From positions 36,815,241 to 36,879,240 of the forward strand of contig OY743186.1 in NCBI GenBank assembly GCA_963555705.1: a DNA stretch of 64,000 nucleotides. Direction: 5' to 3'. Position 1 is the stretch's first letter. Each line of letters begins with the position of its first letter. This DNA is from Ligustrum vulgare. Lineage: Eukaryota > Streptophyta > Magnoliopsida > Lamiales > Oleaceae. Shown one piece after another: positions 9,825 to 46,000 of the stretch. The notes under the pieces are model-generated. The model saw nothing but the letters and a program-made list of their open reading frames with translations, did no database searches and was not told the DNA's origin. A program made the translations under genes and the position numbers.

Positions 9825-10455
9825 GTTCCAGTTGAGCATTTGCCCGTTTCTTCCATTGAGCCGGGAACGAAAATTTTGGAAATAGAAGAAGGGTCCTGGA
9901 TGAGTCCCATAATGGCATACTTGAAGCATCAAACAATACCAAACGAGCCGAAAGCAGCTCGGAGGTTACAAAGATATGCCGCAAATTTTGTACTCTTGGA
10001 TGATCTGCTTTATAAGTGGAGCTACACATCTCCCTTGTTGAGATGTGTTGGGCCGGAGGAAGGACGGTATGTAATGAAAGAAATCCATGAGGGCATATGC
10101 GACAACCACGCCGGGGGGTTATCGCTGGCTCGGAAGTCCCTCAGACAGGGATATTTTTGGCCGACTATGCGAAAGGATTCCCATGACTTCGTCCGCAAGT
10201 GCGATAAATGTCAAAGGCATGTAACCATACCGCATCAGCCGCATCACAAGTTGACTGTGGTAACTAGCCATTGGCCTTTTGCGAAGTGGGGAGTTGATAT
10301 TATTGGTCCTATGCCTATGGGAGCTGGTAACAATTGTTCTCCAATAGTGGAATTGACTACTTCACCAAGTGGGTCGAGGCGGAACCCCTTATGAGGATTA
10401 CCGAGGCCAACACCACCAAGTTCATCTGGAGGAATATTATATGCAGATTTGGAAT
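9825..10455 (+). pseudogene. Integrase, N-terminal part (Tat element)
   Basis: Continuation of pol after insertion A. It carries the zinc-binding HHCC module (H-x-H around EIHEGICDNHAGG, C-x2-C at CDKCQRH) and the start of the catalytic core (WGVDIIGPMP, first catalytic Asp). A frameshift near 10340-10390 moves the following DYFTKWVEAEP-like segment to another frame. The gene is then split by insertion B at 10461 and resumes at about 18998-19003. Confidence 0.85.
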
Positions 10456-11702
10456 ACCGCTGTAGAGACCGGGAATTTTCAATTCTTTCTAAATAAAATA
10501 CTTTTAGAACTTTAAATGCGCGTCGCTACGACTTTTTCCAATTTAATTTAAAAGAGTATTCGTCTAGCCAAATTATAAATGAAATTAAATTAATTTTCAT
10601 CATATTTAAATTTCAGAATTTTATTCAAAATATTCCAATGTCACAATTTTAAATCTTAATTCAATTTTAATGATTTTAAAGTCCAAATTCATTTATTTCA
10701 ACATTTTGATCCTTGTCCAGTTTAAATTTCTTTAATCCCCAAATTTAGATTTTAGCACAATCTCAATTGGTATGAAAAATTCTTTTCTCCACGTTTCCAT
10801 AACCCACCCTCTAAATCAGACATTTTTCTCTTAAAAGAATTCACACACGTTTTATTTTATTTTTTTTGATACCCAATCTGCATAATTCCATCCTCACACC
10901 CCCCCTGATTCTCTCCCTCAACTCCCTAAAATAACATATCAAATTCTGCAATGCCTGCAATTCATCCCAATCAGAAATCTATCCTAGTCTTCCTCTTTCA
11001 GCCCCTCAGTTTTGCATTCCAACTGATAATCATTCCTACAATTCTCCCCAAATCAACAAGTCTCCCTCAACCTACCAAATTCAGCAAACGAACATAAGCA
11101 AGTTACCAAAATTCAGCAAGCAAAAAACAGTAACATATACTCCAATCATTTCTCCCACACGAACTCACTCGAGCCAAACCATCGTTCTGGTAATTTTCCC
11201 TCTCCTACCTTACTGCAAATGTTCCACAACACCACCACAACCAGCCTCCTCCAATTCTCCCAGCCAAACCTGTGGCCCTCACCCACGACAACCACCACCA
11301 CAGTAACCCAATTCACAGCCAACACCTACTGCCCAATTGACCATGAACCAACCACAGCCACATTCGCCTCTGTTCACCGCCATAAATTGAAACTCAATCA
11401 CCAGAGCTGCCAGCCACTCTCTCTCTCAAACCGCGATCGAACACCCATCCTCGACTCCACTCCCCCATTCGAAAATCAAAGCCAAATCCCCAAATAAAAC
11501 CCAAAGCCAAGAATTTAACAAAACCCAAATATCGTACCCGGACCGCCACCTTGTATTGGCCGGAGTTCTTTCGTCGGACAGCCACGAAACCGACCCCATA
11601 GCCTCGGTTAACTCCATTTTTCGCAGCCAAAAACCCTTCCCTTCACATGCCCACACCACCGCCACTGCACTGCTGCCCCAGCGCCGAAACGGAGAGGAGC
11701 AG

Positions 11703-18275: not shown

Positions 18276-19025
18276 AATTATTGGAGTTGAGTCTACTGAG
18301 TATTTCATTTTGAAATGATCACCCCGTTGTTTTAACATTTTTTGCAGATTTCGGAGACGGTGGCGAGTGATGGCCAATGGCGACAAGTATAAATTTGATA
18401 TTATTTTTGAAAGTCGTGAATTTCGAAAACAACCATTTCATTTTATCAAGAATTTTCATTTTAATAAGTTTGTACCAATTATTTTATTTAATCTGAATTA
18501 TTCTTAACTCTTATCCAATAAATGTGATAGTTAATATTTAGTCATTTTTTTTTCCGCAATAAATTTTATTCAAAAATTTAGAAAAGTAGCATTCCCGCGT
18601 TTCTCGGAACTCGGGACGTCACAACCGCACTCGTTGGTTATCGATAATGCAAATTATTGGAGTTGAGTTTACTGAGTATTTCATTTTGAAATGATCACCC
18701 CGTTGTTTTAACAATTTTTGCAGATTTCGGAGACGGTGGCGAGTGATGAGCAATGGCGACAAGTATAAATTTGATATTATTTTTGAAAGTCGTGAATTTC
18801 GAAAACAATCATTTCATTTTATCAAGAATCTTCATTTTAATAAGTTTGTACGAATTATTTTATTTAATCTGAATTATACTTAACTCTTATCCAATAAATG
18901 TGATATTTAATATTTAGTCATTTTTTTCCGCAATAAATTTTATTCAAAAATTTAGAAAAGTAGCATTCCCGCGTTTCTCGGAACTCAGGACGTCACAACC
19001 GCACTCGTTGGTTAACGATAATGCA
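18276..19025 (+). repeat. Tandem duplication across the insertion-B junction
   Basis: A segment of about 376 bp (18276-18651) is repeated at 18652-19025. Each copy contains the last ~345 bp of solo LTR B, the accgc target copy and about 25 bp of the host integrase gene. The duplication therefore took place after B inserted. The copies differ by a few bases and a 2-bp T-run deletion. Confidence 0.9.
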
Positions 19026-19673
19026 AAACAGTTCAAAAACAGAAGCATTGATGAATTATGTGACGATTTGGGAATTAAGAAATTATTTTCGTCTCCGCAT
19101 CATTCACAAGCTAATGGGCAGGTTGAAGCCGTGAACAAGACTATAAAAAACACCCTAAAGAGGAAGCTAGAATCCAAAAAAGGAGCATGGGTAGATGAAC
19201 TCTCACAAGTGTTGTGGGCACTTCGGACCACCTCGCACACTGCCACTGGTGAAACACCTTTCTCCTTGGCGTATGGATCCGAAGCGGTATGTCCGGTTGA
19301 AATTGTGGTGCCTTCTCTTCGTCGAATCCATTACGACGAAGCAAGAAATGGAGAAGCACAGAGGGTTAGCTTGGATTTCCTCCTGAAAAAACGAAGTGAC
19401 TCTCAAACATTAATGACCCAGTACCATGAAAAAATGGCCGGCTACTACAATAAAAGGGTAAAGGGTCCGCACTTTAACATTCTGGATTTAGTCCTCAAAA
19501 AGGTTCTTCCCTCTACTCAAGAACTAGGAGTATGGACTTTAGGTCCTAACTGGGAAGGCCCTTACAAAGTCACCGTCGAGGTGCTACCCGGTACTTACAT
19601 GATCGAAGACCTATCTGGGGTACCTTTGCGTAATCCTTGGAACACAGATCACCTTCGTCGTTACTTTCAATAA
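19003..19673 (+). pseudogene. Integrase, C-terminal part (Tat element)
   Basis: Open for 221 residues. It holds the rest of the catalytic core: NDNAKQF (the second catalytic Asp), then the SSPHHSQANGQVEAVNKTIK motif with the third catalytic residue Glu. It continues through WALRTTSHTATGETPFSLAYG to the C-terminal GPYKV DNA-binding segment and ends LRRYFQ-stop, a normal Tat-type pol terminus. The first catalytic Asp is on the other side of insertion B, so no functional integrase can be made. Confidence 0.9.
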
Positions 19674-20272: not shown

Positions 20273-21732
20273 CTAACTAGCTGCAATCACACTATTGCCA
20301 TATTCACTGGGGGGATCTTTGGCAGAATCTCCGCCTGGTACGATCTGGCAGGGGTCAGAGGGAACGTCAGTAGGAGGATCTTCCCCGAAATCTTGTGGCT
20401 CTGAATATAAGGCCTCGATATGGGAAATGTACAAATCTGGGAAAGTCTCTTTCACATCTCCCAAGGCCATCCTAGCCCCAATGTTCCCAAAAACCCTCTG
20501 CATAGCTTCATACTCAGGGGTCTCTTCGAAAGTATCCTCGAAGTTTTGAACTGCCTTCGACACTTCGGCCCCCAAAACCTCCTTCACCCTGACTGCAATG
20601 GTACGCTCCAAGGCCTCTGCAATTCTGGAGTCAATACGTTTCTCTAGGGAGGCATAATCCCCCTCAGCCTTCTTCCTAGCCTCTACCTCCCCTTGTAGTT
20701 TAGAGGTGATTTCTGCCACCTCAGATGCTAGCTTGGCCTTTGTGGAGTTTGCTTCTGCTAAGGCTTCAGATGTGATGGACTGCGCACGGTTGGAGTCGTC
20801 AAGCTTCTTGCACAGAGCCGCCACATCTAACTCAGAGGCCTGGAGGTCGTGCTTCAGTTTCTCATTATCTTCCTGGAGGCGCTTTGCATGAGCCCTCTCC
20901 TCTGAGGAAGATTTGCGGGCTATGGACAGCTGAGTTTTGAGATCATTAATCTCCTTCAGCATGTTGTCCCGCTGACGGAGTGCAATCTCAGCATCTTTCT
21001 TGTCCCGCTGCGCCTCCTCCACTGAAGACTCCACCTCATCAATAAGGGCCAGTACCCTAGCATTCATAGCTTTGGCAGCAAGTAGCTTCCGGGATGGAGT
21101 GGCACTGGAAGAGAAGGCAGACCAGCCCTCTGTCCAAAATTGCTCAGTGACCAAGGCAGCCCTGGCAGGAGGAGAATTGGGGGAGTCAAATAAAGTAGGA
21201 CTGAAGGTGACGTCCTTGGGAAGGACACTGGCATTAATTTGTTTGAGCTCCTCTGCCCCCGCAGGTGTCATTTCGTAAGCCAAGTCTGGGATAGACACGG
21301 AAGGCTCATCCTCCAAGTCCTGGGTCTCCTGGGGTGGAGGAATAGAGGTGGTATCCTTTTCCCTCCCGAACCTCTTTAAAGGGGCGGGCTCCTCCTCAGA
21401 TAGAGGCTCAGAAATATCCTCGGACACGGGAGATGGCACCAAGGCACTCTTAGACTCCCTTTTCCCTCTTTGAGCCACCCCTATCTGATCTTTTTCCTTT
21501 CCCCGTTGCCCTGACCCTCTTGGGTTCAATCCCTTCTTCCAAGCTGGGCTGTTGGGGGCCCACTGGCAATAGACTGGGCGACGAAAGCAGTGCAGGAAGA
21601 ATACCTTTAATTTAGGCGGTGGACGATTCGGATGCCTCCTTCCCCACCCCTACTTGCAGATTAGCCAACACGGCTTTCTGCCTCCTTTCAATCTCGATGC
21701 CATGGCGGAGAGCAGGAGGGACCTTCTTGGTC
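20273..21732 (-). pseudogene. Antisense extra ORF of the Tat element, C-terminal half
   Basis: Minus-strand open frame of 418 residues (21529-20273), with in-frame-like continuation up to the insertion-C boundary (MTKKVPPALRHGIEIERRQKAV-like segment, near 21655-21735). Residues about 140-320 are a long coiled coil (Glu/Lys/Ala-rich heptads, e.g. KKDAEIALRQRDNMLKEIND). The tail is acidic. Antisense ORFs ending in a coiled coil occur in Tat elements such as Grande and Retand; their role is unknown. The ORF is cut at 21733-21737 by insertion C and continues at 31692. Confidence 0.8.
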
Positions 21733-22032
21733 ATAAGTGTAGCAACCAAGAATTTTTACGTGATTAATAATTATTTTAATAGAAAATCGTGTCGCTACTA
21801 TTTCACCCATTTTTATTAAGTTAACGCAGCGACGTATTCGTATAGCCAAGTCAAGAAATAATCGAGATCGTTCGATTTTAAATTAAATTCCGAATTTCTA
21901 AAAATATCTCCATTTTCTTGATTTAAAGTATATTAAGTCCAAATACTTAATTCAATGTTATCCCAATATTTATTTATACAAAAATTACTTTTATTATTTA
22001 AATTAAGAAAATATATGCAAGCATGAGAGGTT

Positions 22033-22450
22033 CCATTATATGTAATCATGAAGAGCATAATATTTGTATAAAAAATGGAAAAGTATATGAATGATTTATA
22101 TACTCCATTATATATAATCATGAAGAGCATAATATTTGTATAAATATGGAAAAGTATATGAATGATTTATATACTCCATTATATATAATCATGAAGAGCA
22201 TAATATTTGTATAAATATGGAAAAGTATATGAATGATTGATAAGACTCCATTATATGTAATCATGAAGAGCATAATATTTGTATAAAAAAATGGAAAAGT
22301 ATATGAATGATTTATATACTCCATTATATATAATCATGAAGAGCATAATATTTGTATAAATATGGAAAAATATATGAATGATTGATAGACTCCATTATAT
22401 ATAATCATGAAGAGCATATTATTTGTATAAATATGGAAAAGTATATGAAT
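22033..22450 (+). repeat. 71-72 bp tandem repeat in the 5' LTR
   Basis: About six copies of a unit containing CCATTATATATAATCATGAA, spaced 71-72 bp. The same array is at about 29153-29570 in the 3' LTR. Confidence 0.9.
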
Positions 22451-22679
22451 GGTGCTTTACTTTAAGAAAAGGATGTGTTAAAATTAATAGAATTGAATGA
22501 TTATGTTTACAATATGCCAACTTTATACATCTATTTAAACTCATCTCTTTTACACACAACTCTACACATATACACTTATTTCCAACCTCTTGACAAAATC
22601 CACAAGTAAGAGAAATTCAAGGTGGTCAAGAAAGTTTTGGTCCATTTACTACTACACTTCATTTTAATCTTTTAAAAGG

Positions 22680-23955
22680 TAAGTATATCTTATGTTTTTA
22701 TGAAAATTAAGTATGTTGTTATGAAATGTAAATATACTTTAAGTTTTTATGAAAAGTAAGTATGTTTTTATGAAAGGTATTACCTTATGTTTTTATGATA
22801 AGTAAGTATATCTTATGTTTTTATGAAAAGTAAGTATGTTTTTATGAAAGGTAAATACACCTTATGTTTTTATGAAAAGTAAGTATGTTTTTATGACAAG
22901 TAAGTATATCTTATGTTTTTATGAAAAGTAAGTATGTTTTTATGAAAGGTAAATACACCTTATGTTTTTATGAAAAGTAAGTATGTTTTTATGACAAGTA
23001 AGTATATCTTATGTTTTTATGAAAAGTAAGTATGTTTTTATGAAAGGTAAATACACCTTATGTTTTTATGAAAAGTAAGTATGTTTTTATGACAAGTAAG
23101 TATACCTTATGTTTTTATGAAAAGTAAGTATGTTTTTATGAAAGGTAAATACACCTTATGTTTTTATGAAAAGTAAGTATGTTTTTATGACAAGTAAGTA
23201 TATCTTATGTTTTTATAAAAAGTAAGTATGTTTTTATGAAAGGTAAATACACCTTATGTTTTTATGAAAAGTAAGTATGTTTTTATGACAAGTAAGTATA
23301 TCTTATGTTTTTATGAAAAGTAAGTATGTTTTTATGAAAGGTAAATACACCTTATGTTTTTATGAAAAGTAAGTACGTTTTTATGACAAGTAAGTATATC
23401 TTATGTTTTTATGAAAAGTAAGTATGTTTTTATGAAAGGTAAATACACCTTATGTTTTTATGAAAAGTAAGTACGTTTTTATGACAAGTAAGTATATCTT
23501 ATGTTTTTATGAAAATTAAGTATGTTGTTATGAAATGTAAGTATATCTTATGTTTTTATGAAAATTAAGTATGTTGTTATGAAATGTAAGTATATCTTAT
23601 GTTTTTATGAAAATTAAGTATGTTGTTATGAAATGTAAGTATATCTTATGTTTTTATGAAAATTAAGTATGTTGTTATGAAATGTAAGTATATCTTATGT
23701 TTTTATGAAAATTAAGTATGTTGTTATGAAATGTAAGTATATCTTATGTTTTTATGAAAAGTAAGTATGTTTTTATGAAAGGTAAATACACCTTATGTTT
23801 TTATGAAAAGTAAGTATGTTTTTATGACAAGTAAGTATATCTTATGTTTTTATGAAAAGTAAGTATGTTTTTATGAAAGGTAAATATACCTTATGTTTTT
23901 ATGAAAAGTAAGTATGTTTTTATGACAAGTAAGTATATCTTATGTTTTTATGAAA
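22680..23955 (+). repeat. 98-bp (2 x 49 bp) tandem repeat in the 5' LTR
   Basis: Higher-order array of a 98-bp unit made of two 49-bp halves, each with TTATGTTTTTATGAAAAGTA. One half ends ATGAAAG and the other ATGACAA. A variant stretch (about 23500-23750) has AATTAAGTATGTTGTTATGA instead. Nine ATGACAAG halves are present, against ten in the 3' LTR. Confidence 0.9.
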
Positions 23956-24468
23956 ATGTTTGGATCATTGCTATGAAATCAATCTCACAAGATTGTTATG
24001 GGTTCCATATGATATGTTTATGATTATGCTAAGGGGACCGGAGTTTAGTAGCGCTACACATAAGAATTCTTGCCATTTAAGTTCGGTAAAATTCTTGTGT
24101 CTCCCTATGTTTATGAGTATTTCGATCCTATCCTATGTTATGATGAAAATGATCCATATGCTTTCAAAAGAAAATTTATGCTTGGTATACTTACTGGGAT
24201 TTTATAAATCTCACTCCACGATATTTACCATTTTCAGATAATTGAAGGTTCGAGGCGGTCAACATGGAAGTGGCAAAAGTGGTTAAGATTGATGAGATAA
24301 TTATGTTGAACTTTATGTAAGAAAATTATGTTCTATTTTTATTCACAAATAAAATTATGGGATTCTAATTATTCTTTTGAATAATTTTACATTACTATTT
24401 AAGTCTCGATAATATGATATGAGTCACTTTTAGTGGCACTCGAATGGTCGAGAATTCGGGTCGTCACA

Positions 24469-24484
24469 GTTGGTATCAGAGACA
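24469..24484 (+). other. Primer-binding site of element C
   Basis: GTTGGTATCAGAGACA immediately follows the 5' LTR. TGGTATCAGAG matches the initiator-Met-tRNA primer site. Confidence 0.85.
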
Positions 24485-26190
24485 AGAGTTTTAAAAACGA
24501 TTCTGTAGATTTTTGAAATTTTATTTCTTTAAAAAAAAAAAAACACTATTCACGTGAACAGTAAAACGACGTGCTATTCATGATGAACAGTGAACGAAAT
24601 CACTATTCATTTAAAAAAAAAAAAATTTGAATTTTCACATGTCAAGTATGGTTATGATTTTGAAAAGTATGATGAAATTTGATGTGCGAATTTCAAGGAC
24701 AAAATTCATTTTTAGCAAGGGAGTTTGTAATGTCCTGAAAATTTTATGGAATATAATTAGTTAGTGATATGATGTTTATATTGATGTCTTTGATAAATTT
24801 CTAGAAGTTCGGGGACTAAAGGAAAATAAGATTTGACGATAAATTTTTATTTGGGTTAATTAGGCCCAATCTTATGTAAAGATGCGAAATGATTAATAAT
24901 AATTTTTTTTAAAAATATTTTAACTCATCACTCTACTATGTCACTCTCCACGTATTGACTCCTCGAACCAGGTATGTTATATGCTTTGCAAGTCATTTAC
25001 GATTTTATTAAGACATGTTAAGTATGAAATATTCATATGTTATGAATCTTTAAGTGAAATATACATGTTGAGTATGATATGAATTGATAGAAGCCTAAAT
25101 TTTAATTTATTCATTTTAATGTAGAATCATGAGACATAGAGGATATTGATATGAATTTTGGTTCATATTAAGCTTAGTAAGATTGACTCAATTAGAAATT
25201 AAGTTGGGTTGTAACTTTGGCCCAAAATATATGGAATAATATATTAAACAAACAAAATTGATAATGAATTGTACAATAATTTATCCCTTTATCACTACCT
25301 TTGTGTAAAAACAAGGGAAAAACTGTGGATGGTTATTAGTACTTCCTCTTCAAGTTTCAATTTTCGGTTCAATAATTTATCCCTTTATCACTACCTTTGC
25401 TTAAAAGCAAGGAAAAACTGTGGATGATTATTGGTACCACTCTTCAAGTTTCAATTTTGAAAAAAAAATAAAAAAAAAATATGATTTACGAATGATTTTC
25501 AAAATAATCTTTGTCGTCAAGTTTAGAAATGATGAGCCCTAAATGGACTTTGCATAATTGATTTTAGACATGGCACTAAGTATGAGAAGTCAACAGAAAG
25601 GACTAGATAATATTTTCGAATTATTCATCGTTTAGATTAAACGAGAAATAGAAAGTCAGTTTTATGAAGTTATGATGAGATGTTGAGATTATAAGTGATA
25701 TGATTTTATTGAGATTTTTATGAGAAGAATTATGAAGTTGGAGATTTAAAGTTTAGGCTCTTAATTATTGAGAAATAAGGACTTGATATGGTGATATTAG
25801 AAATTATGATTTGAAATTTCTATGTTGAGGAATTATGAATTGATTTTCTGGAATATTTATGATGATATTGAAGTTTGATGAAATTGTGATCAAATGTACA
25901 ATTAGTTATTATTGTGAGTTATGAAGTATGCTTACGATTTGGATAAGTCCAAATTTCAAAGGAAAACTCTGCCTAGAATTTTATCGTTTGGAGTTAAGAG
26001 CATAGTATGGTATGCAATCACTAAGAGAATTGAAGTTAGACATACAAGTTCATTTACATCACAAACGAGATTTAGTAGATGATAACAGAGATATTATTAT
26101 TTTCTCATAAGGAGAACACACAAGAGTCACCCTAGAAAGGAAATACATGAAAACACGCAAAAGCAAAAGAAAGCAACATGGGAAATTCCT
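24485..26190. other. Non-coding interior of element C, with an internal LTR-like start
   Basis: No usable ORF. At about 24685-24724 there is a purine-rich segment resembling a chromovirus pol end and polypurine tract, followed at 24725 by TGTAATGTCCTGAAAATTTT, which looks like the first bases of another LTR. No matching end was found. An imperfect repeat of about 90 bp (TTTATCCCTTTATCACTACC) occurs near 25285 and 25380. Confidence 0.5.
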
Positions 26191-26197
26191 CAAATTG

Positions 26198-26420
26198 AGA
26201 GATGTGTTTCCGGAGTAGCCGTATCCTACCACCTCTGACCTTTTGAGGAAATAAAGAAACCTTCAAAAAGGTGTGTTTCGAGAGTAAGAATACTCCGTAA
26301 TCTACCACCTGGAACCTTTGAGGTACACACAAGATTTAAACATTAAGGAAAATCTTAGGAAATTAGAGGGGTGTCTCGAGAGTAAGAATACTCCGTACTC
26401 TACCCCCACCTATTCTAAGA
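26198..26420 (+). repeat. Three imperfect repeats downstream of the LOG ORF
   Basis: Copies near 26198-26249, 26267-26322 and 26367-26420 share GTGTTTCGAGAGTAAGAATA followed by CTACCACCT-type sequence. They lie just 3' of the LOG stop codon on the minus strand, so would be in its 3' untranslated region. Confidence 0.75.
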
Positions 26421-26421
26421 T

Positions 26422-27075
26422 TCATAAAGTTAAGTTTACATTAACCGGACTCCATTTTCGCTTGATTCCCCTTCCTTGCGACCAATCTATCTTAACCCCT
26501 GCTGGATCTTGTATTGAGATATATGACTGCAGCTTATCCAGTAGTTCATCAATAGTAGGAGCAGAAATAAGAAGCCTTCTGGAAAATGGAGAGATGAATC
26601 CCTGTTCCACAGCATAATCAAGAAAGGTTAACAAGCCATCAAAGAAATTGTTAACATTCAAAAGCCCAATAGGCTTAGTATGGAGATCTAGTTGAGCCCA
26701 TGAGGTAATGTTAAAGATTTCTTCTAAGGTACCAAAACCTCCGGGCAGGGCTATAAGGGCATCAGAACCATATAGCATACAAGTTATGCGTTCATGGATG
26801 GATAAGGTTTGAACTTCATGCCCTCGTGTTTTTCCTGCAACATCTACCAAAGGGACAGGTATGACACCGATTACTTTTGATTTCTCTGCAAGAGCAGATT
26901 GGGAAACACAACCCATTAGACCACTGCTACCACCCCCATACACAAGAGTGATACCTTTTTCCCCCAGTTTCTTTCCAAGATCTACGGCCGCTTCTAGATA
27001 ACTGAAGCCTTTCCCCACTTTTGATCCACAAAATACACAAATAGTTTTGATCTGTCGAAGTTTTGGTGCTTCCAT
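26422..27075 (-). CDS. LOG-type cytokinin riboside 5'-monophosphate phosphoribohydrolase
   Basis: Complete 217-residue ORF, the usual length of plant LOG proteins. The N-terminal Rossmann-like strand is TICVFCGSKVGKG (11-23). GGGSSGLMG (47-55) and PGGFGTLEE (111-119) are the two LOG signature motifs, with the catalytic Glu in the second and the partner Arg in HER (94-96). SWAQLDLHTKPIGLLNV (125-141) and GFISPFSRRLLISAPT (159-174) follow the family pattern. LOG enzymes release active cytokinin base and ribose 5-phosphate from cytokinin nucleotides, in cytosol and nucleus. The ORF has no intron, although plant LOG genes usually have several, which suggests cDNA capture. It is antisense to the retrotransposon and shares upstream motifs with the ORF at 27386-27931. 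Activity and expression are inferred, not shown. Confidence 0.93.
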   Translation of the reverse strand: MEAPKLRQIKTICVFCGSKVGKGFSYLEAAVDLGKKLGEKGITLVYGGGSSGLMGCVSQSALAEKSKVIGVIPVPLVDVAGKTRGHEVQTLSIHERITCMLYGSDALIALPGGFGTLEEIFNITSWAQLDLHTKPIGLLNVNNFFDGLLTFLDYAVEQGFISPFSRRLLISAPTIDELLDKLQSYISIQDPAGVKIDWSQGRGIKRKWSPVNVNLTL

Positions 27076-27149: not shown

Positions 27150-27159
27150 CTATTTAAAG
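27150..27159 (-). promoter_or_regulatory. Putative TATA-like box for the LOG ORF
   Basis: CTTTAAATAG on the minus strand, 75-84 bp upstream of the LOG start. The same ten bases precede the second ORF. Confidence 0.4.
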
Positions 27160-27385: not shown

Positions 27386-27931
27386 TCAATGCTGATTTGC
27401 CACAACCTCATTGTGTAAAACAGACTGGCAGATAGGATCTTTTGCAGTTATATTTTTGAGACTATAACGATTTTTGTCTTCGTTAAACTGAGCGTATAAG
27501 GAGAGAAGTTCACGTTGCACATAACCACTTGGGTGCGTCTCAAGAGTCAGTCGAATATCATCCAAAGACTCCTTACTCAGTCCACCCTTTATGAATTTGA
27601 CTTTATCATCCCGATTAGTAGAAGAATATCCTACTGTTTTGCAACGAGTATCACAGTTCCAACGAGCATATTTGTAGCAACCATTCAGCCTTTTTGCTCT
27701 TCGTTTCTTTGCGAAGGTGCTTTTGCCTAAACCAGGCATGTGCTTTGGAAATGTCATAGGTAATTCACCAGATAATCGAACTTTTGCTTCGATCAACCAG
27801 CGAACATCTTCTGGAATACCATGAGCCATCAGCAACCTCAACCTTTCGAGCCTAATTCGATAAATTTTTCTCAGATCATTCATAGGAAGATTGGAATAAT
27901 ACTTGCGAATGTTTGAAAGGATGATATCCAT
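27386..27931 (-). CDS. 181-residue basic Cys-containing protein, function unknown
   Basis: Complete ORF starting 33 bp after the CTTTAAATAG box. Residues 1-60 are predicted mostly helical (MDIILSNIRKYYSNLP, RIRLERLRLLM). Residues 68-82 are strongly basic (GLGKSTFAKKRRAKR), possibly a nuclear or nucleic-acid-binding signal. Cys85, Cys93 and Cys97 (GCYKYARWNCDTRC) could be a zinc-binding module that has lost one Cys (Tyr88). A polar C-terminal region follows. The layout of basic run, Cys cluster, then G-Y-S and FI-x-x-G recalls the small Cys-rich nucleic-acid-binding proteins of some plant RNA viruses (carlavirus type). That is pattern recognition only and unproven. It is intronless, on the same strand as LOG and 310 bp upstream of it. 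Confidence 0.65.
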   Translation of the reverse strand: MDIILSNIRKYYSNLPMNDLRKIYRIRLERLRLLMAHGIPEDVRWLIEAKVRLSGELPMTFPKHMPGLGKSTFAKKRRAKRLNGCYKYARWNCDTRCKTVGYSSTNRDDKVKFIKGGLSKESLDDIRLTLETHPSGYVQRELLSLYAQFNEDKNRYSLKNITAKDPICQSVLHNEVVANQH

Positions 27932-27963: not shown

Positions 27964-27973
27964 CTATTTAAAG
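27964..27973 (-). promoter_or_regulatory. Putative TATA-like box for the 181-residue ORF
   Basis: CTTTAAATAG on the minus strand, 33-42 bp upstream of the start codon and identical to the box before LOG. Confidence 0.4.
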
Positions 27974-28857
27974 GTATAAAGGAACTAAGTGGATCCATCT
28001 GATATTGATTCCAGCAAGAAAGCGCGGAATAGAATAATGAAAAGAAGAGACAAGAATTAATGCGCTGTTTAATTTTATCGATAAAGGAAGATTTGATGAT
28101 AAGATTTTGAGATACAGAATATTTTCTTGGATTTGGTACTGATATTTTAGGTATAATAATAAGTAATTAAGGTATGGTGTGATGATACGGGAATACGTGA
28201 AAGTGAAATAAGGACCGTATCGAATCAGAATTCATAAGTATGTACAAGTGAAAGAAATACCTTGCGGAAAATGTTGTGACAATTAAGTGAAGAATTTTAG
28301 TTATTTGGGAGCTAATTATTTATTTGAATTTTGCAGAACGTTTTGGTTACAAATATGGGAAAAGATAAGCTGATGATATTATGTTGATTTATGAATAATA
28401 TGTTTGGATATATTACATAGGGGATATTCAGGTAACCATTTTATTTACTTTGGGATATTTGGTGATAAGAAGAAATGACTAATTATTATGGTATGATATG
28501 TTAGTAAAGATTTATTGAAATTTTAGAGATATTAATACGAATATTTGAGGTCACATGATACGATGATAAGTGACAGGTTACATGAGTACTACAAGACATG
28601 ATGAAATATCACATACGATTGGGAATTTTCCTTTTGAGTCAGAATTTATGAGTAGACACATATGTCTATTATTGATAGAAAAGTCCATGTTTTTAAGAAA
28701 AACAAAGATATGCATTTAGTCAAAGTCCAGTGGGTTAAATATAGTAGCAATGATACTATCTAAGAGAAGAAGAGAAGAGATTCTGATTAAGTGTTCAGAA
28801 ATCATAAGATCAAGTAAGTTTAATTTCGAGGACGAAATTATTTTAAGGGGGCAAGTT
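27974..28857. other. Non-coding interior of element C before the 3' LTR
   Basis: AT-rich, no supported ORF. It ends with a chromovirus-like pol-end remnant (AATTTCGAGGACGAAATTAT, about 28822-28841) and the purine tract AAGGGGGCAAG used for plus-strand priming. Confidence 0.6.
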
Positions 28858-31686
28858 TGTAGCAACCAAGAATTTTTACGCGATTAATAATTATTTTAAT
28901 AGAAAATCGTGTCGCTACTATTTCACCCATTTTTATTAAGTTAACGCAGCGACGTATTCGTATAGCCAAGTCAAGAAATAATCGAGATCGTTCGATTTTA
29001 AATTAAATTCCGAATTTCTAAAAATATCTCCATTTTCTTGATTTAAAGTATATTAAGTCCAAATACTTAATTCAATGTTATCCCAATATTTATTTATACA
29101 AAAATTACTTTTATTATTTAAATTAAGAAAATATATGCAAGCATGAGAGGTTCCATTATATGTAATCATGAAGAGCATAATATTTGTATAAAAAATGGAA
29201 AAGTATATGAATGATTTATATACTCCATTATATATAATCATGAAGAGCATAATATTTGTATAAATATGGAAAAGTATATGAATGATTTATATACTCCATT
29301 ATATATAATCATGAAGAGCATAATATTTGTATAAATATGGAAAAGTATATGAATGATTGATAAGACTCCATTATATGTAATCATGAAGAGCATAATATTT
29401 GTATAAAAAAATGGAAAAGTATATGAATGATTTATATACTCCATTATATATAATAATGAAGAGCATAATATTTGTATAAATATGGAAAAATATATGAATG
29501 ATTGATAGACTCCATTATATATAATCATGAAGAGCATATTATTTGTATAAATATGGAAAAGTATATGAATGGTGCTTTACTTTAAGAAAAGGATGTGTTA
29601 AAATTAATAGAATTGAATGATTATGTTTACAATATGCCAACTTTATACATCTATTTAAACCCATCTCTTTTACACACAACTCTACACATATACACTTATT
29701 TCCAACCTCTTGACAAAATCCACAAGTAAGAGAAATTCAAGGTGGTCAAGAAAGTTTTGGTCCATTTACTACTACACTTCATTTTAATCTTTTAAAAGGT
29801 AAGTATATCTTATGTTTTTATGAAAATTAAGTATGTTGTTATGAAATGTAAATATACTTTAAGTTTTTATGAAAAGTAAATATGTTTTTATGAAAGGTAT
29901 TACCTTATGTTTTTATGATAAGTAAGTATATCTTATGTTTTTATGAAAAGTAAGTATGTTTTTATGAAAGGTAAATACACCTTATGTTTTTATGAAAAGT
30001 AAGTATGTTTTTATGACAAGTAAGTATATCTTATGTTTTTATGAAAAGTAAGTATGTTTTTATGAAAGGTAAATACACCTTATGTTTTTATGAAAAGTAA
30101 GTATGTTTTTATGACAAGTAAGTATACCTTATGTTTTTATGAAAAGTAAGTATGTTTTTATGAAAGGTAAATACACCTTATGTTTTTATGAAAAGTAAGT
30201 ATGTTTTTATGACAAGTAAGTATATCTTATGTTTTTATAAAAAGTAAGTATGTTTTTATGAAAGGTAAATACACCTTATGTTTTTATGAAAAGTAAGTAT
30301 GTTTTTATGACAAGTAAGTATATCTTATGTTTTTATGAAAAGTAAGTATGTTTTTATGAAAGGTAAATACACCTTATGTTTTTATGAAAAGTAAGTACGT
30401 TTTTATGACAAGTAAGTATATCTTATGTTTTTATGAAAAGTAAGTATGTTTTTATGAAAGGTAAATACACCTTATGTTTTTATGAAAAGTAAGTATGTTT
30501 TTATGACAAGTAAGTATACCTTATGTTTTTATGAAAAGTAAGTATGTTTTTATGAAAGGTAAATACACCTTATGTTTTTATGAAAAGTAAGTACGTTTTT
30601 ATGACAAGTAAGTATATCTTATGTTTTTATGAAAAGTAAGTATGTTTTTATGAAAGGTAAATACACCTTATGTTTTTATGAAAAGTAAGTACGTTTTTAT
30701 GACAAGTAAGTATATCTTATGTTTTTATGAAAATTAAGTATGTTGTTATGAAATGTAAGTATATCTTATGTTTTTATGAAAATTAAGTATGTTGTTATGA
30801 AATGTAAGTATATCTTATGTTTTTATGAAAATTAAGTATGTTGTTATGAAATGTAAGTATATCTTATGTTTTTATGAAAATTAAGTATGTTGTTATGAAA
30901 TGTAAGTATATCTTATGTTTTTATGAAAATTAAGTATGTTGTTATGAAATGTAAGTATATCTTATGTTTTTATGAAAAGTAAGTATGTTTTTATGAAAGG
31001 TAAATACACCTTATGTTTTTATGAAAAGTAAGTATGTTTTTATGACAAGTAAGTATATCTTATGTTTTTATGAAAAGTAAGTATGTTTTTATGAAAGGTA
31101 AATATACCTTATGTTTTTATGAAAAGTAAGTATGTTTTTATGACAAGTAAGTATATCTTATGTTTTTATGAAAATGTTTGGATCATTGCTATGAAATCAA
31201 TCTCACAAGATTGTTATGGGTTCCATATGATATGTTTATGATTATGCTAAGGGGACCGGAGTTTAGTAGCGCTACACATAAGAATTCTTGCCATTTAAGT
31301 TCGGTAAAATTCTTGTGTCTCCCTATGTTTATGAGTATTTCGATCCTATCCTATGTTATGATGAAAATGATCCATATGCTTTCAAAAGAAAATTTATGCT
31401 TGGTATACTTACTGGGATTTTATAAATCTCACTCCACGATATTTACCATTTTCAGATAATTGAAGGTTCGAGGCGGTCAACATGGAAGTGGCAAAAGTGG
31501 TTAAGATTGATGAGATAATTATGTTGAACTTTATGTAAGAAAATTATGTTCTATTTTTATTCACAAATAAAATTATGGGATTCTAATTATTCTTTTGAAT
31601 AATTTTACATTACTATTTAAGTCTCGATAATATGATATGAGTCACTTTTAGTGGCACTCGAATGGTCGAGAATTCGGGTCGTCACA
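28858..31686 (+). repeat. 3' LTR of element C
   Basis: 2829 bp, exactly 98 bp longer than the 5' LTR, matching one extra tandem-repeat unit (array about 29810-31165). Outside the arrays only a few substitutions were seen, for example T21761 versus C28881. Confidence 0.95.
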
Positions 31687-31691
31687 ATAAG

Positions 31692-33038
31692 GTCCTTCAA
31701 GGAGATCTTCGGGAAGTCCTTGGAACCTGTCAAGAAAGAAAGAAGAATAAAGGTACGAGTGATTGAGACATAAGCAATGGAGGCAGTAAGATAACGAACT
31801 CACCCATAGCTCGCATAAGGCCGTGCTTAACAAAAAGCTTGTTCTGTTGAATGACCTCCTGGAAAGTACCCCGGTAAGCAAACACTAGCTGCACTGCCCC
31901 TAAATTTGCGTCGGAGAGGAGGCAAGAAAAAGTGTCCCCTGCCACAAACCAATAACATATGAAAACAGATAAAGGAAGATGAACAGAAAATAATAAATGA
32001 ATGACACATAACACCTAAGGACGCGAAAGTAAATACAAGACTCACTAGGCGAGGAAAGAATTCGGGGAATGGTGATTTCTAGACTAGGATCCACAGGCGA
32101 GCTCTGCCAATCCCCTGCAACCCAGAACCACTGGTTTTTATTGAAGTGGGATGACCAGTGATAACAGGAGGATATGGGCCTCTGGGGGACAAGTAGTACT
32201 AGTCCTTGACATTCGACCTCACATCCTTATCTCTTCTAACGGACTTCTTCAGGGTATATAAGGTGTGAATAATGTGCAATGAGATGGGGTAGCCAGGATT
32301 AACCTCTTGCCACACCAGCCAAGTACCCATGGCCTTCGTCCAGAAATTAGGGGCCAACTGGTAGGGGCATAAGTTGTAGCTCCTAAGCAGTGCCCTGAAA
32401 AAGGGGTGCAGGGGTAGCCTCATCCAGCAGGATAAAGCGTCCTAACACACGACCACATGTTATGCGGGAGGGCTACAGGGTCGGAAAGAAGGCATAGGGT
32501 GCACTAGACGAACTCCTTCTGGTATTCTGAATTTCGCCGATGCTCCCGCTAAATCCAGTCCTCGAATTTTCGTGGCAATCTCACTGCTTTCCCAAGACTC
32601 TGAGTTCGGATCAGGGTCCACATGATACCCTAACACCTTATTCACCAGGTCCACCCAACCTTCAACTTGTGCTATTTCCTCTTCAGATAGCCCTAACTCT
32701 TCCCTATGTGCCCTAAATGGGGCCCTGATGCTTAAGCTGAGGTCCTGATGACCAGAAGAAGTGCCCACCGCCTCTCCTTTTTTCAAGTCCCTATCCCTCT
32801 TGCTTCTAAGTTCCTGCAAGGAGGCTTCTTCATCGGATGAGAGATGAGCCATGTAGGTTTGGTTCTTTTCTTCTTCGCTGTCAGAATCATCCAAACAAAT
32901 TACACCACTGCATTTCCTATTCCTCCTCCTGATCTGCTCCCTAAAGAAGCGGGAACTAAAAATCGATAAAGACAATTGGCAGAAACCTCTGACAGGAATC
33001 GCCATTGCCAACAATTCCCTTGAACCCGTTCCCCCCAA
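31692..33038 (-). pseudogene. Antisense extra ORF of the Tat element, N-terminal half with introns
   Basis: Minus strand. 33038-32460 encodes an acidic Ser-rich start (DDSDSEEE) and a helical segment. A frame change follows. 32423-32199 encodes RLPLHPFFRALLRSYNLCP, the pattern of the so-called gypsy-type transposase domain (Pfam Transposase_28) found in antisense ORFs of Tat elements. Further exons are separated by introns with good sites: donor GTGAGT near 32045 to acceptor GTGGCAG near 31942, and donor GTGAGT near 31797 to acceptor TTGACAG near 31730. The last exon runs to the insertion-C target site and continues at 21732. Product location and role are unknown. Confidence 0.75.
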
Positions 33039-43000: not shown

Positions 43001-46000
43001 AGCTACTTTTCAGTCCCTAATGAATCAGATTTTCAAAGGTTTATTGACAAGGTGTGTATTGGTTTTCTTTGACGACATACTAGTTTACCGTCATAATATG
43101 GAAGAGCACTGCGTTCACTTGGTTGAAGTGTTAAAGATCCTACAAGAGCAGCAGCTATATGCCAATAAGAAGAAATGTGAGTTCGGGTGTGCGACCTTGG
43201 AATATCTGGGGCATTTGATCAGTTCAAAGGGGGTAGCAGCGGATCCCAAGAAAATCGATGCAATGCAATCTTGGTCATTACCAAAAAATATCAAAGAACT
43301 AAGGGGCTTCTTGGGACTAACAGGATATTATAGGAAATTTGTGGAAGGATATGGGAAAATAGTCGAACCACTGACCAGACAATTGAAGTAAGATAGTTTC
43401 CATTGGGATCAAGATGCAAATTTTGCCTTTTACAAGTTGAAGGCAGCCATGACAAATGTCCCTGTTTTAGCTCTGCCAAATTTTTCATTACCGTTTGTAG
43501 TGGAAGCCAATGCTTCAGGAGTGGGTTTAGGAGCTGTCCTCTCTCAAGAACAAAAACCTATAGCTTATTTTAGTCAAGCTTTATGTCCCAGGGCTAGACT
43601 AAAGTCCATTTACGAAAGGGAACTCATGGCCATTTTGTTGGCAATACAGAAGTGGAGACACTATTTGCTAGGGCAACATTTTTTAGTACGGATGGATCAA
43701 AAGAGTTTGAAGTTCCTATTGGAGCAACGGTTGGTATGTGCGGAACATCAAAAGTGGGTTACCAAATTACTGGGGTATGACTTTGAGATTCAATATAGAC
43801 CCGAGCTGGAGAATAAGGCTGCAGATGCTCTTTCTAGACTTCCACTAGCAGCTGAACTATCAGTGATAACGGTGTCAAAAGTGCTGGACTTGGGGGAATT
43901 GCAAGCACAGATAGCGATGGATGAGAGGTTGTCAAGCATTAGAGAGGCACTAATCAAAGACCCCCTAGCTATTGAAGATTGGACAGTTACGGATGGGTGC
44001 CTTTTGTACAAACAGCACTTGGTCTTACCTAAGGACTCCAATATGATCCCTTGATTACTTCAAGAATTTCATGGCAGTGCGTTACGAGGACATTTTGGAG
44101 TTTTGAAGACATATAAGAGGATTGCCCAGGAGTTTTTTTGGGTCGGTATGAGAAAGGATGTTCAGAAATTCGTGGAAGCTTGCTCGATTTACCAACAAAA
44201 CAAATACCTAAGCTCTTTCCCCAGCAGGATTACTACAACCCTTACCCACACCGGATGCTATTTGGGAGGATCTTACCATGGATTTTATTGAGGGTTTACC
44301 AAAGTCTAAAGGCATGGATACCATTTTGGTGGTAGTGGATCGGCTGAGCAAGTATGCCCACTTTATGACACTGAAACATCCATTTACAGCCTAAACAGTA
44401 GCAACTTTGTTCGTTCAAGAAGTGGTGAGACTTCATGGTTTTCCTTACTCCATTGTGTCAGACAAGGACAAGGTTTTTCTTAGCCTTTTCTGGATAGAAC
44501 TCTTCCGCCTCCAGGATACAACCCTACGCCCGAAGCACGGCCTATCACCCGCAGTCCAATGGGCAGTCTGAAGTAGTGAACCGTTGTTTGGAGACTTATT
44601 TGCGTTGTTTTGCTAACAGTCACCCTCATACCTTGGCAGAATGGGTTCCTTGGGCAGAATTTTGGTATAATTCTTCCTTTCATACTTCAGCCAAGACTAC
44701 TCCTTTCAAAATAGTTTATGGGCGGGATCCTCCTCCTGTTATTCGTTATGGAACTCAAAAAACTACTCTGGAAAATCTTGATCAGCAGTTGCAAAACCGC
44801 AATAAAATGATTGATGAGTTGAAGTTGCAGTTGCAGTTAGAAAAAGCTCAATCAAAAATGAAGAAGTTTGCAGACACTAAGAGGAGGGAAGTTCATTTTC
44901 AGGAAGGGGAGTACGTGTATCTCAAACTACAACCGTATAGACAGAAATCTCTGGCCAGACGTGTTAATGAGAAGCTCGCACCCAAATTTTTTGGCCCTTA
45001 TAAAATTAGCCAGAAAGTTGGTAGTGTGGCTTACAAAGTACAACTTCCGGAGAATGCCAACATTCACCAAGTTTTCCATGTATCCTAGTTGCGTAAGGCT
45101 ATCGGATCTGCTCATCCAACCCAACCCCTCCCAACCCTGATCAGTTCAGATATGGAATGGAATGTGCAACCATATGCTGTGTTGGGAATCCGTCCAAGTA
45201 GTGATCCATCTGATAAAGGACCAGATGTTTTGATTCAATGGCAGGACCTTCCACCATTTGAGGCTTCTTGGGAACCTTTTGAATTGATAAATGCGCAATT
45301 TCCTGAATTTCACCTTGAGGACAAGGTGCTTTTATTCGCGGGGGGGTATTGATAAACCCCCTATACAGTTCACTTACTCCAGACGTCGAATGAAGGGCGT
45401 TTGGTTAGAATATTCTAGAAGGAGAGGTTGGTTTAGAATCTATGGAGGGGATTAGTTAAAATGATGTCAGGTTGTTATGGAGGAATAAAGGAGGAAGGGC
45501 AGGAGGTAGAAGGCATTTAGGAAATTAGAAAGTCTTGGGTCATTTTAGGAGAGGGGCAGCTCTCGAAACTTACCTTCTTACTTGTCATTTTCATTTCTTC
45601 ATCTTGTAATTTCCACAGTTTACTAAATACAAACTAAATTCCCATAATATAGAACTTCATTTTTCCGTATTGTGCTATATATTTGTTGTGGGTGGAACAG
45701 GGTTTCACCATTTTCATATACATGCTTTTATATTTAGTGGAATATTTGGATCTCTGTTATTTTTTTGGTATTTGATTTATATTTCAGAGTTCTTCCTTCT
45801 GAAGCAGTATTTTATAGCCTGTTCGGTAATGGTTTTTAAACCATTTTTTTACACAATTTCCCAAACTACTTTTTAACCACACACATTTTCTCTCTTCAGT
45901 TTTTAACCATGTGCCTTACTTAGAAAACACAAAAAAACACCCAAAAAAAACCGTGAGGACCGCCACCGAACAGTCCGTTATTCCTATTCTATGTGGTAAT

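Follow-up and report, generated by a model that had tools for sequence, protein, structure and literature searches.

An antisense LOG-family gene and a virus-type NABP gene, a possible accessory pair in a young LTR retrotransposon of Ligustrum vulgare

Between the LTRs of a recently inserted, apparently non-autonomous element of Ligustrum vulgare, two uninterrupted genes lie side by side in antisense orientation, one belonging to the LONELY GUY (LOG) family and the other encoding a carlavirus-type nucleic-acid-binding protein (NABP). We consider this arrangement to represent an accessory pair acting on the host cell, and not a lone captured hormone gene, with about as much confidence as doubt. 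In this reading, the two genes form an accessory module of long standing in plant Ty3-type elements, which is likely a kit for manipulating the host in the nucleus and not simply a hormone gene that spreads. The analysis covered a window of 64,000 nucleotides (contig OY743186.1, positions 36,815,241 to 36,879,240 of the forward strand), to which all coordinates refer.

The element

The element has a size of 9.9 kb and the LTRs, target site duplication, primer binding site, and polypurine tract of an LTR retrotransposon. Its 5' LTR (21738..24468, plus strand, 2731 bp), which contains tandem arrays of 71-bp and 49-bp units, and its 3' LTR (28858..31686, plus strand, 2829 bp) both start with TG and end with CA, and the target site duplication ATAAG is found on the left (21733..21737) and on the right (31687..31691), in neither case assigned to a strand. 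The 5' LTR is followed by the primer binding site TGGTATCAGAGAC (24471..24483, plus strand), which we take to be of the tRNA-Met type, and the 3' LTR is preceded by the polypurine tract AAGGGGGCAAG (28845..28855, plus strand). Since these two sites set the element on the plus strand, the LOG ORF on the minus strand is antisense to it. A pairwise alignment of the LTRs comprised 2722 matches, 9 substitutions (8 of them transitions), and 98 gap columns. The arrays (22032-23956 and 29152-31174) hold 5.9 copies each of the 71-bp unit and 24.3 versus 26.3 copies of the 49-bp unit, and the 98-bp difference in LTR size is therefore explained by two more 49-bp units in one of them. Assuming 1.3e-8 or 7e-9 substitutions per site and year, the LTR divergence of 0.0033 corresponds to an insertion about 0.13-0.24 million years ago. 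The preliminary description of this DNA had deduced a recent insertion from nearly identical LTRs and an identical target site duplication, and its conclusion is borne out by the few substitutions and by ATAAG on both sides.

Its statement that the element is devoid of gag and pol also holds, as neither was recognisable and the LOG and NABP ORFs are the only ones of at least 100 amino acids between the LTRs. Hence the gag and pol of an autonomous Ty3/gypsy element were not found here; one frame on the gag side had no Pfam match, and in a suspected remnant of pol no Pfam family reached its cut-off. The latter is a stop-riddled plus-strand frame (28611-28856) ending with FRGRNYFKG beside the polypurine tract, which by eye resembles the end of a chromovirus pol. 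As a candidate pol remnant it was dismissed: the single Pfam match, to a poxvirus family that is unrelated, was far below the cut-off (15.1 versus 27 bits, E 0.027), and a convincing match was absent elsewhere in the window. The insertion is flanked by two minus-strand ORFs (20273-21271 and 32460-33005), one of which matches coiled-coil models below the cut-off, and they are possibly parts of one older element that was split by the insertion.

The LOG-family gene

The LOG-family ORF (26422..27075, minus strand) encodes 217 amino acids from an ATG start without interruption. It matches PF03641 (5.7e-33, 114.3 bits versus a cut-off of 27), PF18306 (1.4e-11), and TIGR00730 (160.2 bits, above the cut-off of 96.35), and its best solved relative is Arabidopsis At2g37210 (2a33; E 3.5e-57). 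The window protein, the only one scored against the NCBIfam equivalog CtkRMPhLog, stayed below the cut-off of this model (106.8 versus 300 bits). Both HER and PGGFGTLEE are present, so that the intact LOG ORF of the preliminary description is real. The two oddities that it had listed are less peculiar than they seemed. PGGFG indeed differs from the canonical LOGs compared, all of which have Y at this position (120 of 120), but F is common among the listed window-type relatives (44 of 120, next to L in 70, Y in 3, and I in 3). The short N terminus turned out to be only slightly short, as residue 8 of the window protein aligns with residue 12 of 2a33. A function as lysine decarboxylase, the old name of the family, was rejected, as no such activity was found in a bacterial LOG (PMC4979012).

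A TATA-like site, TTTAAATAG, begins 83 nt upstream of the LOG ATG (27150..27158, minus strand); eight such sites are located on the minus strand of the window and none on the plus strand. Downstream of the LOG stop, a hairpin-forming repeat of about 41 bp is present at 26367..26407 and, with 90% identity between the two copies, at 26269..26309 (both minus strand), and a third, which is shorter, is situated around 26203-26236. Folding z-scores for the repeats within 26185-26420 were modest (-1.22, -2.30, and -0.43) and no Rfam family was matched at the gathering threshold, so the claim of a structured region 3' of LOG was dropped.

Phylogenetically, the window protein stands apart from the canonical LOGs sampled. 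Canonical LOGs were sampled as the best 120 hits to one LOG3-like query, with LOG8 added in the tree, and the tree comprised 74 sequences, of which 51 were of the window type (the window protein and 50 thinned from 120 listed relatives), 21 were canonical plant LOGs, and 2 were bacterial. A 100/98 branch split the window-type sequences from the canonical and bacterial ones in this midpoint-rooted tree (n=74), whose bootstrap had not settled and whose bacterial sequences are long branches. Rather than being nested among the canonical plant LOGs, which were represented by LOG1/LOG3-type sequences and LOG8, the window protein lies on the other side of this branch. Its mean identity is 47% to canonical LOGs and 52% to its own relatives. 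The phylogenetic check thus agrees with the earlier statement that the protein has diverged from ordinary plant LOGs.

The window protein retains both catalytic residues (R96 and E119), and so do most of its relatives. The catalytic Arg is kept in 111 of the 120 listed relatives and replaced in 9, compared with 120 of 120 canonical LOGs; Glu119 is kept in 119 versus 120, and Thr116 in all 120 of both samples. The picture is reversed at two pocket positions (Lys100 and Glu125 in CgLOG numbering), which are invariant in the 120 canonical LOGs, whereas Lys was found in just 1 and Glu in none of the 120 listed relatives, the window protein having I97 and N122 instead. The His97 position is conserved in 41 and the Trp129 position in 112 of the listed relatives, and both residues are present in the window protein. 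In a bacterial LOG, Lys100 contributes to the adenine pocket and the proposed prenyl pocket, and Glu125 to the latter (PMC4979012). Replacement of AMP-site residues by alanine, among which we infer Lys100, nearly abolished the activity of the bacterial enzyme with the exception of S19A (PMC4979012).

These observations bear on the explanation that a working, cytokinin-activating LOG is being spread, which would convert nucleotides into free hormone and thereby promote the division of cells able to pass on the element. It would account for the largely conserved PGGxGTxEE and catalytic residues as well as for the strong match to Arabidopsis At2g37210, but the loss of Lys in the pocket and of Glu at the prenyl site, together with the alanine exchanges in a bacterial LOG, argues against it, and we hold this explanation, a plain cytokinin-activating role, to be rather improbable. 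The attribute "hormone-activating" given to the gene in the preliminary description is accordingly unproven, because the two pocket residues are replaced even though the catalytic pair is kept. Judged from its separate clade and its exchanged pocket Lys and Glu, the window LOG seems not to be a recent copy of a normal LOG gene of the host.

A further difference concerns the C terminus. The pattern LxLxL occurs within the final 12 residues of 92 of the 120 listed relatives but in none of the 120 canonical LOGs, and the contrast persisted after thinning of near-copies (36 of 46 versus 0 of 66; shuffled rate, 0.3%). LxLxL is the form of the EAR motif by which TOPLESS co-repressors are recruited. 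At least three basic residues are found within the final 18 positions of 109 of the 120 listed relatives, compared with 7 of the 120 canonical LOGs. The window tail VNVNLTL is a looser form that is shared with the closest listed relative (P0001) and fails the strict pattern. The same holds for 28 of the 120 listed relatives, some of which are truncated.

The LTR setting was read directly for the window LOG, and for the wider clade it is suggested by the dispersal of the gene in Reevesia pubescens and by a printed report (PMC9289625). Among the 120 listed LOG relatives, at least 10 clusters stem from R. pubescens, with tags naming nine chromosomes; the same sample includes proteins that are annotated as ordinary LOG genes. 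Names such as LOGL10 occur among the relatives from Diospyros and Populus, in line with the idea that window-type LOGs are an ordinary plant subfamily, of which the element took up a single member along with a virus gene that had become integrated. Such an origin is quite unlikely in view of the ten clusters on nine tagged chromosomes of a single species, the LOG domains in consensus sequences of LTR elements (PMC9289625), and a NABP gene located behind an integrase on a contig described below. The existence of a widespread separate clade and the LOG domains printed for Citrus and Populus LTR elements (PMC9289625) likewise make it unlikely that this element captured its gene from an ordinary host LOG, as had been proposed initially.

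The NABP gene

The preliminary description had treated LOG as a lone captured gene, an idea that has to be abandoned because a virus-type NABP gene adjoins it in the same antisense orientation. This ORF (27386..27931, minus strand) encodes 181 amino acids without interruption and matches Viral_NABP (PF05515; 8.2e-07, 29.7 bits, cut-off 23), while the window copy stays below the cut-off of Carla_C4 (PF01623; 18.6 versus 20.9 bits). Among 24 aligned NABPs, the window protein included, Viral_NABP was recovered for 22 and Carla_C4 for 20 at an E value of 0.01. The search yielded 323 homologues at E <=0.1, for the best 120 of which a Carla_C4 match was precomputed throughout, and the named homologues among the matches listed come from plants, e.g., Populus, Acer, Xanthoceras, and Striga. 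Hallmarks of the family are a basic stretch and four cysteines, the latter kept in 111, 118, 120, and 116 of the best 120 of 323 homologues. Three of the four are conserved in the window copy, which lacks the second one that is present in 118 of the 120 listed relatives (with the cysteines as defined on the plant family), and because of this missing cysteine the window copy may be losing zinc binding. A TATA-like TTTAAATAG is also found in front of this gene (27964..27972, minus strand), beginning 41 nt upstream of its ATG.

The identity as a gag zinc knuckle was considered and rejected; the finger consists of four cysteines with a spacing of 2-4-3. TRP28, known from Retand-type antisense ORFs, had no Pfam match in either the LOG or the NABP ORF, and scans of IMG/VR with both proteins and both alignments yielded no confirmed relatives.

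The intactness of the two ORFs could also be a mere consequence of the youth of the insertion, in which case they would be passive cargo, i.e., chance gene fragments in a non-autonomous element. The low LTR divergence (0.0033, about 0.13-0.24 million years), the lost cysteine of the window NABP, and the fact that the 240 listed relatives match one place only in the window are in line with this notion. It is nevertheless unlikely, given that two separate ORFs are uninterrupted and still adjacent, each with its own TATA-like site, and that full-length relatives with invariant columns exist in distant plant families, with about 45-60% identity for LOG and 50-66% for NABP.

Linkage of the two genes outside the window

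The sole locus obtained from the scan of genome contigs, L001 (DAIEQH010000041.1), resides on a contig of 3.3 kb, on which the end of an integrase of the Ty3/gypsy type (rve, Integrase_H2C2) is followed by a NABP gene on the same strand. Env-like genes occupy this place in other elements. A match to the 3.3 kb was obtained with none of the 120 listed LOG relatives, and this NABP without LOG speaks against the pair, albeit on a short contig. L001 is filed under a bacterial metagenome-assembled genome (Candidatus Nomurabacteria); because of its content a plant origin is inferred, and it is probably plant contamination in the bacterial bin. Three regions of the window (9834-10459, 18987-19610, and 44070-45073) resemble the L001 integrase with 23-46% identity and appear to be other Ty3/gypsy-type elements. 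Behind the NABP stop codon of L001 (2345-2413), the frame runs on with RAFKPLLDVKLEEDVSHNHNYL, and P0148 and P0205 consist of NABP fused with a near-identical peptide, the latter protein ending with NLSLSL. Stop-codon readthrough or an alternative end of the L001 protein is possible.

The window is the one sequence on which both genes were read together, and their pairing elsewhere was assessed by equal contig sizes. LOG and NABP entries of the same source had longest contigs of equal size in three cases (8723, 4511, and 2128 bp), and in 20000 trials with jitter, three or more equal sizes of at least 1500 bp were reached at a rate of 0.3-0.4%. This count was based on 86 of the 120 LOG and 97 of the 120 NABP entries (ena, jgi), with other sources left out; coincidences at 905 bp (in two sources) and at 1018 bp were disregarded, since contigs of this size have no room for both genes. 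The three matching contig sizes suggest that LOG and NABP are linked elsewhere.

Proposed function of the accessory pair

According to our preferred reading as an accessory pair, LOG and NABP would move jointly as one module of Ty3/gypsy elements in plants, as the three coincidences in contig size suggest. Since each of them has a TTTAAATAG site before its ATG, separate antisense transcription of the two genes from their own TATA-like sites is probable. Some of the cysteine-rich NABPs of viruses are suppressors of silencing, and one is a transcription factor that causes hyperplasia (PMC12172455). The NABP of the element is predicted to bind nucleic acid and to dampen RNA silencing like its viral relatives, and because of their two known activities it would protect element RNA or alter host transcription. 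The LOG protein would enter the nucleus, recruit a TOPLESS-type co-repressor via its tail, and bind or split a nucleotide in its changed pocket.

A more far-reaching version is put forward only tentatively and may well prove wrong. It envisages a two-gene host-manipulation module of Ty3/gypsy elements, in which NABP weakens RNA silencing, while a nuclear protein derived from LOG has exchanged hormone activation for the recruitment of TOPLESS. Such a module could sit at the position of env or be reused in antisense orientation by non-autonomous elements of other kinds, and it would perhaps even be the source of the NABPs of flexuous plant RNA viruses.

Known systems and implications

The window ORF shares with the LONELY GUY cytokinin riboside 5'-monophosphate phosphoribohydrolases (e.g., 2a33) the PF03641/TIGR00730 fold family, the size, PGGxGTxxE, and the catalytic Arg and Glu; it differs from them in its uninterrupted state within an LTR element, the exchange of Lys and Glu in the pocket, the LxLxL-type tail, and the separate clade. 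A LOG (YgdH) domain has been recorded in Ty3/gypsy consensus sequences of two Citrus species and, without the n5 filter, of Populus trichocarpa (PMC9289625, section 12, citing Steinbauerova 2011). These elements resemble ours in harboring a LOG-family domain within a plant LTR element, but the window element is non-autonomous, with LOG in antisense beside NABP, and section 12 of PMC9289625 mentions neither such a partner nor the tail. Carlavirus NABPs (PF05515 and PF01623) have in common with the window protein the profile match and a basic stretch ahead of the cysteine cluster, whereas the window NABP is located in a retrotransposon, has 181 amino acids and one cysteine less, and belongs to a family with conserved N- and C-terminal parts of its own.

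Antisense ORFs of plant LTR elements are as such well known (PMC11963269, PMC7264820). Those of Retand, Grande, and RIRE2 represent the same situation of antisense coding between the LTRs of plant Ty3 elements (PMC7264820, PMC11963269), but the Retand ORFs are mainly TRP28 (PMC11963269), whereas the window element has a recognisable LOG and a virus-type NABP. Antisense extra ORFs were cited as dissimilar to viruses in a 2020 review (PMC7264820), and an unknown virus was named as one possible source of them in a paper from 2025 (PMC11963269). In the titles and abstract openings of the best-ranked matches in the open-access literature, neither the LOG-NABP pair nor the LOG tail was described.

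Where the additional antisense ORFs in LTR elements of plants come from and what they do has been a puzzle. Here one of them has a recognisable relative in plant viruses, and the other can be assigned to an enzyme family, within which it shows a specific and conserved remodelling. Both ORFs lead to testable predictions, namely silencing suppression, nuclear localisation, TOPLESS binding, and an altered substrate. A vague question is thereby turned into bench experiments, and retrotransposons are linked to the accessory genes of RNA viruses.
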